From: Cryptobacterium curtum DSM 15641
GTDB taxonomy: Bacteria > Actinomycetota > Coriobacteriia > Coriobacteriales > Eggerthellaceae
Length of the DNA: 64,000 bases
Direction: 5' to 3'
Assembly (NCBI RefSeq): GCF_000023845.1
Contig: NC_013170.1
Location: forward strand, 868,001 to 932,000
Within the stretch, counting starts at the first letter, position 1. The number at the start of each line of letters is the position of its first letter. The position numbers were made by a program, and so were the translations under genes. This document shows positions 58,289 to 62,725 of the stretch, in pieces. The notes beneath the pieces were generated by a model that was not told the origin of the DNA, did no database searches, and saw nothing but the letters and a program-made list of their open reading frames with translations.

Positions 58289-58453
58289 TTATATCTTCTC
58301 TGTTTCTCTCTTGATTAGCTTTAGTATTTTATCCTTGTATGTTTCCCCTGTACCTTGCTTGAAATGTAGGTTTACGGTGTATTTTGTTTTTCCAATATCC
58401 ATTATTAACTGTTTATGTTGTGGTTCTTTTATTACTCTTTTTTCTTCTTCCAT
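58289..58453 (-). CDS. tnpW: Transposon-encoded protein TnpW-like
   Basis: 54 residues with a perfect AAAGGAGG ribosome site. Lys/Glu-rich, with DIGKTKYTVNLHFKQG at the centre, resembling the small TnpW proteins of Tn4451-type elements. Function is unknown. It lies at the end opposite the recombinase, as expected. Confidence 0.7.
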   Translation of the reverse strand: MEEEKRVIKEPQHKQLIMDIGKTKYTVNLHFKQGTGETYKDKILKLIKRETEKI

Positions 58454-58560
58454 GTGTCCTCCTTTCCGTTTTTAAGCAAAGAAAAAACAGCAAACCTTTT
58501 TGATTTACTGCTTTCGTGTTAGCTTTTATTGAATTGTTAGTTTAGCAAGCTAAAAATATC

Positions 58561-59178
58561 CTACTTGCAATACTCTTTTATTTTATCGGCATATTCAGTC
58601 AAAAGATTCTTTGAATAAATTTTTTCATTTCTTGAATTTCTGACTTCTTTCCAAAGAATAGAAGCTACTTTTAATTTGTTTGAGTAGTTGCAACTATTTT
58701 CGTCTGCACAGAAATCCTTTAAAAATTGATTCCATTGACAAACCGAATTATCATACTTTGCATAATCTGATTTCCCATAATAAACTTTTAGCATATCTTG
58801 AATTGTAAAACTCAAATCATTTTCTCTTTTTACTTTTCTCCAAACTGTTGCCATATCAGCAGTAAATTTAAATGGTGAGATACCTGTTAAAACAGCGAAA
58901 TATTCTCTGAACTTTGCATTAAAAGAAAAACCACATTCAAGTAATGGTGTATCTAAAGTAATATTTTCCACTTGCTTCTTTTCATTTTTTATTGATGATT
59001 TTTTAATCAAATTACCCTTAAAGTATTGCTCAATAATATAATTGAGTTCCTGTTTTGTACCTCTATATTCTAATCCTAATGACTTGCATATCTGTGAAAG
59101 TTCTTCACGATACCAATAGTATTTAGTAAATTCATCAAACGATGTAATTTTGTCAAACTCAGGTCTACTTTCTATCAA
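58561..59178 (-). CDS. SAP-domain protein carried by the element
   Basis: 205 residues. An N-terminal SAP-like helix-extension-helix (about 15-55; YYWYREELSQICKSLGL and TKQELNYII) is followed by a domain with LLECGFSFNAKFREYF and KDFCAD seen in Firmicutes mobile-element proteins. SAP domains often bind DNA. Strong AT bias indicates transfer with the element. The precise role is unknown. Confidence 0.7.
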   Translation of the reverse strand: MIESRPEFDKITSFDEFTKYYWYREELSQICKSLGLEYRGTKQELNYIIEQYFKGNLIKKSSIKNEKKQVENITLDTPLLECGFSFNAKFREYFAVLTGISPFKFTADMATVWRKVKRENDLSFTIQDMLKVYYGKSDYAKYDNSVCQWNQFLKDFCADENSCNYSNKLKVASILWKEVRNSRNEKIYSKNLLTEYADKIKEYCK

Positions 59179-59190
59179 TTTTTTATCTCC

Positions 59191-59321
59191 TCAAAACCAA
59201 TTTACTTTTTCATCTCTAAATAATGGTGTTTCACTCTCTTTGTAAGGATTGTAGTTGTTACAATTACAACCAAACTCTTTCAACGCTTTTATCTTATTAT
59301 CGGCTGTCCAAATATTGTTTT
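59191..59321 (-). pseudogene. C-terminal remnant of an unidentified protein fused to the recombinase breakpoint
   Basis: In the frame other than the recombinase, about 43 codons read through to TGA at 59191: IWTADNKIKALKEFGCNCNN, then a short Pro/Glu/Phe-containing tail ending NWF. There is no start codon, and it overlaps the 3' end of the truncated recombinase. It marks an internal deletion junction. Confidence 0.5.
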
Positions 59322-60113
59322 ACCAAGTACAGTGTGTCCCATATATTCTCTTTTTTCTAAGATATAACCTACTGTGGTCGGTGTCCAAAAATACGGGTCT
59401 TCTATTCCTCTTTTCTTTGAGCTATGGTTATTTTCGGGATAATGTATTTCTGCATAGGCTGACGGAATAAGGATTTTATCTTTGGTTAGTATATCTGCTA
59501 TCTGTGTTACTCCATATCCCTCTATAACAAGATGGTAAATGCGTTTTACGACCTTTGCACTCTCTTTATCGACAAGTAACTGCTGTTTGTTCTTTGGGTT
59601 TCTATAATAGCCGTATGGAACGCTTGGAGATACTCTTTTACCCTCTTCCATTCTTGCTCTGAAGATAGATTGTATTTTTCTTGAGGTATCCCTTGCATAC
59701 CATTCGTTCATAATGTTTAAAAATGGGGTAAAGTCGCTTTCTGCTTGTTTCTCACTGTCTATTCCGTTATTGATAGCGATAAATCTTACTCCCTTTTCTT
59801 TGAAAAGTATTTCGGTGTAAAAGCCTACTTTGAGGTAATCTCTGCCAAACCTACTCATATCTTTTACTATCACAGTAGATACTTTGTTTTCTTCTACTGC
59901 TTTTATCATTTTTTGAAATCCCTCTCTATCAAAGGTTGTTCCGCTTACTCCATCGTCTGTATAGTGATAAATATTTACAAAGCCGTTTCTTTTGGCATAG
60001 CTTTCAAGTAGCTGCTTTTGATTGGTGATAGAATTGCTCTCTCCTTGCATTTCATCATCACGACTTAAACGCTCATAAAGAGCTGTTTGTCCTGTTCTTT
60101 TCGTATTTGACAT
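59289..60113 (-). pseudogene. tnpX: Truncated large serine recombinase (TnpX-like)
   Basis: 274 residues; full-length relatives have roughly 550-700. The resolvase catalytic domain is intact: Ser17 in YERLSRDDE, then TDDGVSGTTFDREGF and KDMSRFGRDYL. The Recombinase domain continues to GHTVLGKTI, after which the sequence diverges (FGQPIIR) and stops. The zinc-ribbon/coiled-coil DNA-binding part is missing, so autonomous transposition is unlikely. A GGAAAGGAGG site precedes the ATG. Confidence 0.85.
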
Positions 60114-60163: not shown

Positions 60164-60412
60164 TTAATCCTTTTGGTGAGATTGACTCTTACATGCTGGG
60201 TCGATACGGATTTCTTCCCCATGACCACGCAAGACAACTTCATATCCCATAGCCGCCGCCATTGACACGAGTTCTTCAGCTTTCACATCGTCACGTTTAA
60301 AGCTAAACAAATCAAAGATAGTGGCATGCGTACAGCCAATAGCATTGGCAAGTTTCATTGCATTCATGCCACTTGAATCCAGCATTTTTGTTATAGCTGC
60401 AAGTAATTTCAT
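60164..60412 (-). CDS. Small HTH (XRE-like) DNA-binding protein
   Basis: 82 residues with base composition like the host, unlike the adjacent element. A helix-turn-helix is visible (about 14-45; GMNAMKLANAIGCTHATIFD), followed by EELVSMAAAMGYEVVLRG. It may be an orphan regulator or antitoxin-like protein. The element inserted just beyond its stop codon. The ribosome site is weak. Confidence 0.6.
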   Translation of the reverse strand: MKLLAAITKMLDSSGMNAMKLANAIGCTHATIFDLFSFKRDDVKAEELVSMAAAMGYEVVLRGHGEEIRIDPACKSQSHQKD

Positions 60413-60544
60413 AGTCTCGAGTATATACGAAGGATTGTCCTGCCAGAAAGATAGTACTCAGTAGTGGTTTGTAATCTGTTCTTAGTGAACGATTTAAAAC
60501 AGCGGAAGAAATCTACTTGCCGCCTTTTAATGTTGCACTACTAT

Positions 60545-60564
60545 AAGTTAGGTTAGCCAAACTT
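60545..60564 (+). promoter_or_regulatory. DtxR/IdeR-like palindrome
   Basis: AAGTTAGGTTAGCCAAACTT is a 20-bp inverted repeat (8 of 10 positions symmetrical), and its TTAGGTTAG half equals the IdeR/DtxR consensus half-site. It lies 265 bp before the efflux gene, making a metal-responsive operator plausible. Confidence 0.45.
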
Positions 60565-60621
60565 CAATGTGGAGTGTAAAAAATGGCAGGTAAAAGATAG
60601 CTATTCACCGTAGGGCTGAAT

Positions 60622-60745
60622 ATTCGGAATTGGTTACATGTATCACCTGGGCGTTCAGAGCTACTTGCATGTACTAACTGAACATTCAGAATTGCTTGCA
60701 TGTACTAACGAGATGTTCAGATTCGTTAACATACACTAACCGCTT
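60622..60745 (+). repeat. Four tandem repeats with exact 31-bp period
   Basis: Units start at 60622, 60653, 60684 and 60715. The shared core is TTCAGAATTGCTTGCATGTA followed by CTAAC; the second and third units are most alike. The period is close to three helical turns, which would put all copies on one DNA face. The array ends 83 bp before the efflux gene start. Confidence 0.8.
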
Positions 60746-60828
60746 GAAATTGACTATACAAATGTGCGGTAAGCATACAGAAACGAAAGGAATGCAAAAT
60801 AGGCACTGAACTGGAAATACAAATCGGC

Positions 60829-61938
60829 TTGAAGGCACGCAATCGCTCCATTCGTCAGGTAGCGCTTATCAACATTGCAGCAAACATCCTTCTCGTTGTC
60901 TTCAAGATGCTCGCTGGTCTGCTTTCCAATTCGGTCGCTATTATCCTGGGTGCTATCAATAATCTTTCCGATGCGCTTTCTTCCATTATCACGCTTATCG
61001 GTGCCAAGCTTTCCGAACGAAAACCCGACCGCAAACACCCGTTTGGCTATGGTCGTATCGAATATCTTGTCACCTTTCTGGTGGCTGGTATCGTGCTTTA
61101 TGCCGGTATTAATTCCATGCAGGAAGCTATCGCACGCATCATTACGCCAGAATCAACTACGTATGACTTTACGTCCCTCTTGATCGTTTCTGTTTCCATT
61201 GTTGCAAAGATGGTCTTAGGCACATTCACGATTAAGCGTGGCAAGCGTTTAGGCGCCGATGCCCTGGTTGGGTCCGGCATCGAATCACGCTATGACGCCG
61301 TCGTATCCGCTGCCACTCTCGCTTCAGCGGGTGTATACCTCGCGGGTGGAATTTCGCTTGATGGATGGGTAGGCGCGATTATTTCGCTGCTTATTATTAA
61401 AGCAGGGTTCGATATTCTTCGTGAAGCGGTCAGTAAAACGCTTGGTGAACGCGCTGAAGCACAGTTATCCCAAGCAGTACGGACAACCATCAACCAGATA
61501 GATGGTGTACATGGCGCCTACGACTTGGCTCTATATGACCATGGCCCAGGTGCTATTGATGGATGTGTTCATGTGGAAGTAGATGACACGATGACGGCCG
61601 CACACATGGATGCAATCAGCCGTCGCATTAGAAAAGAGGTCTACGAAAAACAGCATGTCCATTTGCTGGCGGTTGGTATTTATTCAACAAACACTCAAAG
61701 CAGTAAAGCAAGTGAAATACGCACGGGTATAGCAGACATCATTGCGCAGTTTCCCCACGTACACGACCTTCATGGATTCTATCTGAATGAGGAAACAGAA
61801 ACGGTGAGCTTCGACGTGGTTATTGGGTTCGATGACAAAGATCGATATGCCACCTTTAATGAAATATGTCGCCAAGCAGCGCAAAAGTACCCTCATTATG
61901 AGTTCAATGCCACGCTTGATGTCGATGCGACCGATTAG
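60829..61938 (+). CDS. Cation diffusion facilitator (CDF) efflux transporter
   Basis: 369 residues. Six membrane helices occupy about 10-210. TM2 carries NNLSDALSS, the loop HPFGYGRIEY is diagnostic, and TM5 has ESRYDAVVSA where other CDFs have HxxxD. The C-terminal cytoplasmic ferredoxin-like domain appears extended. The substrate is probably Mn, Zn or Fe. The start is odd: TTG 60829 lacks a good ribosome site, while AAAGGA lies near 60786 ahead of non-standard codons. Upstream repeats suggest regulation. Confidence 0.9.
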   Translation: MKARNRSIRQVALINIAANILLVVFKMLAGLLSNSVAIILGAINNLSDALSSIITLIGAKLSERKPDRKHPFGYGRIEYLVTFLVAGIVLYAGINSMQEAIARIITPESTTYDFTSLLIVSVSIVAKMVLGTFTIKRGKRLGADALVGSGIESRYDAVVSAATLASAGVYLAGGISLDGWVGAIISLLIIKAGFDILREAVSKTLGERAEAQLSQAVRTTINQIDGVHGAYDLALYDHGPGAIDGCVHVEVDDTMTAAHMDAISRRIRKEVYEKQHVHLLAVGIYSTNTQSSKASEIRTGIADIIAQFPHVHDLHGFYLNEETETVSFDVVIGFDDKDRYATFNEICRQAAQKYPHYEFNATLDVDATD

Positions 61939-62017
61939 CCGATCGTGCGTCCCTTGTCCCTTTACCTCTTTATCCTTTATGGCACCACCCTAACCACCCT
62001 AACCACAATTACACACG

Positions 62018-62052: not shown

Positions 62053-62180
62053 GCAATAGGGGAAAACCATACACCACAGTCTCAAGTAGGCTTGAATTCT
62101 CTCAGTCGGACATAACAAAATGACACCCACAGACTGACTGTCAAAACGCCGATATGGATAGCTCTCAGTCAGGCATAACA

Positions 62181-62210
62181 AAAAACGGCTATCCCTGAGG
62201 GACAGCCGTA
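62181..62210 (-). terminator. Intrinsic terminator of dps
   Basis: On the minus strand ACGGCTGTCCC, TCA and GGGATAGCCGT are followed by TTTTTTG. A degraded copy of the T-tail and downstream sequence occurs 63 bp further. Confidence 0.85.
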
Positions 62211-62293: not shown

Positions 62294-62725
62294 TTACATC
62301 TGTGATTGACCGATCATCCAGATATGCTTGGACAGCAGTGCAATGTGCTCGTCCATAGCTGCTGAAACCAGATAATTATCTTCAGCATCAGCATCTTTCT
62401 TGATGTCAGCAGCAAGACTCCGCAGCGATTCAAAGTCGCTCTTTACCGTTGCGAAGAGTGCATTCACTTCTTTGAAGCCATCTTCTGCTTCGTCAATTGT
62501 GGCAGCTTTAAGGAAGCCTGCCATCGAAGCGAGCGGCTGACCGCCATTTTGCAGCACCAGTTCGGCTACTTCGTCGATCTGATCAAACATCTGGTCATAG
62601 AACTCTTCGAGTTTGGCATGCGTGTTAAAGAAGGTGTGACCTTTGATGTACCAATGGAAGTTCTGGGTTTTGTGGGCTACTACTGCATAGTTTGCTAACA
62701 AAGTATTGAGCTTGTCGTTAATCAT
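62294..62725 (-). CDS. dps: Dps-family ferritin-like DNA-protection protein
   Basis: 143 residues. Dps is a dodecameric mini-ferritin that oxidises and stores iron and limits Fenton damage. The ferroxidase site at the dimer interface is visible: His24 in QNFHWYIKG, His36 in NTHAKLEEFYD, and the DQIDEVAE acidic pair. No basic DNA-binding tail is obvious. It has its own promoter with a palindrome just upstream of -35. Confidence 0.93.
   Translation of the reverse strand: MINDKLNTLLANYAVVAHKTQNFHWYIKGHTFFNTHAKLEEFYDQMFDQIDEVAELVLQNGGQPLASMAGFLKAATIDEAEDGFKEVNALFATVKSDFESLRSLAADIKKDADAEDNYLVSAAMDEHIALLSKHIWMIGQSQM

Follow-up and report, generated by a model that had tools for sequence, protein, structure and literature searches.

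Genes and features of the locus

The window, which is the whole stretch of 64,000 nucleotides analysed here, corresponds to bases 868001–932000 of the single-contig genome (1,617,804 bp) of Cryptobacterium curtum, which we take to be an oral Eggerthellaceae-type actinobacterium. A 416-bp gap lies directly 5' of a gene for a CDF-family cation efflux transporter, and both a tandem array of 31-bp units and an iron box are located in this gap. The features of the locus are as follows.

58289–60113, − strand: what is left of a Tn4451/TnpX-type element, encoding TnpW, a protein with a SAP domain and a truncated serine recombinase (274 aa)
60164–60412, − strand: small gene for a Cro/C1-like HTH protein, divergent from the array and suspected to be a piece of the neighbouring element
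60547–60562, no strand assigned: probable DtxR-type iron box, GTTAGGTTAGCCAAAC, with 11 of 12 positions matching GTTAGG-N4-CCTAAC
60622–60652, + strand: array unit 1, ATTCGGAATTGGTTACATGTATCACCTGGGC, which shares the strongest divergence with unit 4
60653–60683, + strand: array unit 2, GTTCAGAGCTACTTGCATGTACTAACTGAAC, with an exact TTGCATGTACTAAC inside
60684–60714, + strand: array unit 3, ATTCAGAATTGCTTGCATGTACTAACGAGAT, also with an exact TTGCATGTACTAAC inside
60715–60745, + strand: array unit 4, GTTCAGATTCGTTAACATACACTAACCGCTT, with a 16-mer at 60725, GTTAACATACACTAAC, that agrees with the iron-box pattern at 9 of 12 positions
60829–61938, + strand: CDF-family cation efflux transporter, with NxxxD in TM2 and ExxxD in TM5; start uncertain
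62294–62725, − strand: gene for a ferritin-like (Dps-type) protein, converging on the CDF gene

The CDF protein was assigned to its family by PF01545 (E 1.8e-37), PF16916 (E 3.9e-7) and TIGR01297 (190 bits), and it contains both the Cation_efflux domain and the cytoplasmic dimerisation domain. The NxxxD and ExxxD sequences are its site-A motifs, and the TM5 motif is DxxxD in its relatives. His-containing motifs are present in many Zn transporters, and Asn/Asp variants are present in some Mn carriers (PMC10932157). Because NxxxD and ExxxD are found instead of the His-containing motifs of Zn transporters, Mn and/or Fe is a reasonable guess for the substrate. No in-frame ATG or GTG is available as the start, which leaves TTG 60829 or ATA 60799; within 60754–60829, an AAAGGA Shine-Dalgarno sequence is located ~7 nt 5' of the in-frame ATA, and the TTG is without one. 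No sigma-70-like promoter was found by scanning the + strand from the array to the CDF gene. On the 3' side of the CDF gene (61984–62006 and 62099–62183), a short tandem of ACCACCCTA was observed, as was a pair of 22-bp CTCTCAGTCRGRCATAACAAAA copies lying 63 bp apart.

On the other side of the gap, the region 58289–60113 is, as judged from its genes, a decayed element of the Tn4451/TnpX type. At the DNA level, its SAP gene is ~76% identical to genes of streptococcal plasmids, and the G+C content is 32% in the AT-rich remnant upstream of the array. The HTH gene and the truncated TnpX-type recombinase gene lie in tandem on the − strand just beyond the array. The HTH protein resembles phage/Cro-type proteins (phrog_2339, E 3e-6), and its predicted fold is too poor for use (pLDDT 48.5). 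The original prediction offered this protein as a binder of the array, which is not supported by its setting beside a decayed TnpX/TnpW-type element, by the lack of a match to any metalloregulator family, or by its distribution (two weak relatives among 137 other genomes of the family).

Structure and distribution of the array

The array occupies 60622–60745 as 4 x 31 bp without gaps. Its units abut without spacers and differ pairwise at 8–15 of 31 bases (identities of 19, 21, 16, 23, 18 and 19 of 31), and the closest pairs are units 1 and 3 and units 2 and 3. The mean identity at period 31 was 0.651, while every other period from 20 to 44 gave 0.40 or less and the best of 150 dinucleotide (Markov) nulls reached 0.44. 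The array was also the top self-match of the window (lags 10–119, windows of 62 and 93 bases), and TRF independently reported a period of 31 with 2.3 copies at 60652–60721, which is the central part of the array. The four adjacent units with an exact 31-bp period were thus correctly predicted, with exact coordinates and far above the Markov nulls, and so was the intergenic position between the small HTH gene and the CDF transporter gene. The 14-mer core quoted for the units, TTGCATGTACTAAC, has an exact copy in each of units 2 and 3 but not in units 1 and 4. The blocks common to the units are TTNCATGTAYTAAC and TTCRGA, the latter being absent from the earlier description; as opposed to the linkers, the conserved blocks are TTCRGA and CATGTACTAAC. 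No significant dyad was found in the array unit (p = 0.59–0.83), and the conserved columns of the units were not significantly clustered (p = 0.165). With a 25-column window, the six trailing columns were more variable than the remaining 25 (p = 0.025, with no correction for four window sizes). The 'three helical turns' once read into the period are arithmetic and not evidence, because 31 bp corresponds to 2.95 turns at 10.5 bp/turn.

The array is single-copy in the C. curtum genome. The core pair at 31-bp spacing had three in-register matches in this genome, all of which are the array itself, and one match, with three mismatches, across the 395 other genomes of the class. The TTGCATGTACTAAC core with at most two mismatches was found at 5 other sites of the genome, versus 7 for the reversed control. 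Searches of 396 class genomes, 84,980 species genomes, plasmids and phages did not find the array, and nothing convincingly similar to the whole intergenic region was found in relatives, plasmids or phages; at the strain level, this comparison covers one C. curtum genome and no congeneric genome. A degenerate core pair gave one match in the GTDB species collection and two in viral contigs. The first, in Oxalobacter, is a chance match, the second is a 33-bp repeat of different sequence, and the third consists of pairs of palindromic TTGGTACATGTACCAA; all of them were judged unrelated to the array. Two pairs of palindromic TTGGTACATGTACCAAC surround a gene start in a viral contig (415–458 and 685–727), and these pairs are probably operators of a phage regulator.

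The 400 bp upstream of the CDF genes were compared for 29 relatives (best 46–49% identical) and for the second CDF gene of C. curtum itself (47%). No such array was found upstream of these genes, period 31 gave nothing notable, and the self-match was at most 35/62, versus 44/62 at the array. An iron box scoring at least 10 was also found at none of them. The association with CDF orthologues considered in the original prediction is therefore not supported, the array being lacking at 29/29 relatives, the nearest of which are only 46–49% identical, and at the second CDF gene. This lack is one half of what the original prediction named as its refutation, the other half being an absence of regulatory change. 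No conserved regulatory use of the array was found among the 29 relatives and the paralogue, and searching the literature for tandem-repeat operators at CDF genes returned nothing. On sequence grounds, the array appears to be a real, lineage-specific feature, and a regulatory role is plausible but unproven.

Several known types of repeat were rejected. An iteron array had been proposed, and this was abandoned because there is no replication gene among the Pfam-scanned neighbours, no second copy, and no similar plasmid or phage DNA; the published C. curtum 12-3T genome is without an extrachromosomal element (PMC3035227). A CRISPR array does not fit units without spacers between them and with 8–15 differences in 31 bases, and 0 CRISPR repeats were reported for the published genome (PMC3035227). 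A phage or plasmid origin was matched neither by the DNA nor by the HTH protein.

The iron box and its companion sites

The iron box at 60547–60562 is located 60 bp 5' of the array, is new in this analysis, and is probably of the DtxR type. The pattern GTTAGG-N4-CCTAAC was suggested by comparing the window site with the upstream regions of feo and mntR. When at most one mismatch was allowed, 5 sites were found in the genome versus 1 for the reversed control. The four other sites (genome 1468975–1468990, 1469337–1469352, 397425–397440 and 1245991–1246006) are all intergenic, and they lie before feoAB (two sites), a gene for a ferric-reductase-like membrane protein (PF01794, below cut-off) and a flavodoxin gene (PF00258, E 3.5e-19). 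FeoAB, flavodoxin and ferric-reductase-type functions are classically iron-regulated. Since the feo and window sites helped to define the pattern, it is the flavodoxin and ferric-reductase sites that lend it independent support. The feoA gene has two boxes 29 bp apart.

An 11/12 box has a probability of P = 0.001 in a Markov region of 416 bp, the length of the gap. On the − strand, the iron box lies within the spacer of a promoter-like site facing the HTH gene, and on the + strand it directly follows a TATAAG hexamer facing the array and the CDF gene. With the 19-bp consensus of corynebacteria, TTAGGTTAGSCTAACCTAA, the window site was the sole match and the control was not surpassed, whereas the shorter pattern of the species itself was effective. 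Two PF01325 (DtxR/MntR-family) proteins, encoded at genome positions 1463959 and 1454485, are over the cut-off, and their best NCBIfam match is MntR. In the interval from the iron box to the array, a possible five-residue leader ORF (60584–60601, ATG GCA GGT AAA AGA TAG) follows a GGAG.

When the units were compared in register with GTTAGG-N4-CCTAAC, units 1 to 4 matched at 4, 7, 8 and 9 of 12 positions. In permutation, this likeness gave p = 0.057 for the best-register sum and p = 0.052 for the best unit. Units 2–4 thus resemble the iron box weakly, with p above 0.05, which is suggestive of boxes of the same kind.

Origin and possible function of the array

The array is tentatively best explained, with less than even confidence, as a lineage-specific operator array that was born by duplication and would serve metal-responsive control of the CDF exporter. 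It would have arisen when 31 bp of the promoter or leader region of the CDF gene were tandemly duplicated, giving a young, lineage-specific cis element. By analogy with the IdeR-bfrB and MntR-CDF systems, the array would most likely be a series of sites bound by a metal-responsive regulator, and the leading candidate for the binder is one of the two DtxR/MntR-type proteins of the genome. The array may act together with the iron box at 60547, by which the exporter, probably moving Mn(II) and/or Fe(II), would be tuned to intracellular metal. The analysis itself shows the array and its uniqueness, the box with its companion sites, the two regulators and the family of the transporter; binding of the array, the identity of its binder, its hold over the CDF promoter and the metal are inferred. 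This explanation is favoured by the array being above chance, the 11/12 box in the same gap, the two regulators of the MntR/DtxR family, the double box at feoA, the CDF motifs, the IdeR-bfrB and mneP/mneS precedents, the kept spacing and the likeness of units 2–4. Against it are the p values above 0.05 for the likeness, the 4/12 match of unit 1, the lack of a dyad, the unclustered columns, the lack of extra core copies over the control, the lack of an array or box at the relatives, and the lack of a + strand promoter.

Four tandem IdeR boxes activate bfrB in Mycobacterium tuberculosis (PMC9132128). The C. curtum locus is similar in having four tandem units before a metal-detoxifying gene in an actinobacterium, with a DtxR-type box in the gap. 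In contrast, its units are predicted sites that show a poor match to the iron box of the species, and its gene encodes a CDF transporter and not a ferritin. In Bacillus subtilis, MntR activates the CDF genes mneP and mneS (PMC9993123). C. curtum likewise has a CDF exporter and MntR-type regulators. We know of no 31-bp array at mneP or mneS.

The main rival to an operator array is a neutral minisatellite, in which slippage or unequal recombination in an AT-rich intergenic region made the copies, the copies drifted, and the period has no meaning; we hold this to be only slightly less likely than the operator array. Bacterial minisatellites and VNTR loci consist of head-to-tail copies, and the C. 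curtum copies are likewise head-to-tail, ~31 bp long and intergenic, but they are unusually diverged. Neutral origin would agree with the absence of the array at every relative tested, with the missing dyad and column clustering, with the AT-rich region beside a decayed mobile element, and with units 1 and 3 and units 2 and 3 being closest, as in stepwise duplication. It fits less well with the position of the array directly 5' of a metal exporter and 3' of an iron box, and with the more variable six trailing columns at their uncorrected p value. The 31-bp spacing was also kept at 38% divergence. About 32 substitutions were inferred among the units (star tree, Jukes-Cantor distances) without any indel, an outcome with a chance of 0.002, 0.04 and 0.20 at substitution:indel ratios of 5, 10 and 20, respectively. 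Because tandem duplication gives exact spacing free and this chance ranges from 0.002 to 0.2, the spacing argument is suggestive at best, and the selection on spacing that had been proposed is not established. The exact spacing weakly favours constraint, and the evidence overall leans slightly to constraint.

It is unlikely that the array represents operator or recombination accessory sites of the element remnant, used by the HTH protein or a lost protein, with its adjacency to the CDF gene being accidental. The nearby HTH gene and truncated recombinase, the phage/Cro-like character of the HTH protein, and the AT-richness common to the array and the element are in line with this. However, similar DNA is lacking in phages and plasmids, the best HTH homologue has no array, and no repeat is common to the array and the far end of the element. 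To our knowledge, serine recombinases of the TnpX type do not use such arrays, which also counts against it.

A cooperative long-period operator, on which DtxR/MntR-type dimers at 31-bp steps would occupy the same DNA face and bring about a lineage-specific activation of metal export, is distinctly improbable. Cooperative ParA operators of type Ia partition promoters contain regular direct repeats covered by dimers (PMC8465637). The C. curtum array also has several direct repeats at a regular distance, whereas the motifs of the ParA operator are hexamers with gaps of 13 and 28 bp; neither a ParA gene nor a partition gene was observed among the genes neighbouring the array.

There is very little likelihood that the array works at the RNA level, in a ~250-nt leader controlling folding or translation if transcription starts near TATAAG at 60541: this + strand hexamer abuts the iron box and the predicted fold of 60600–60830 is more stable than shuffles (z -2.1; 3/200 as good), but tandem repeats with CATG palindromes fold well unaided, the Rfam search gave no match, there are no homologues for covariation, and the promoter is a weak match unlisted by the promoter scan.

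If the operator array is functional, a metal-efflux promoter would gain a graded, cooperative response through a duplicated weak site, and multi-box activation of the IdeR-bfrB type would be extended to a transporter. The firmer result is the small, coherent iron-box regulon predicted for feoAB, flavodoxin, the ferric-reductase-like gene and the array locus, which concerns a poorly studied oral bacterium and offers a direct test.
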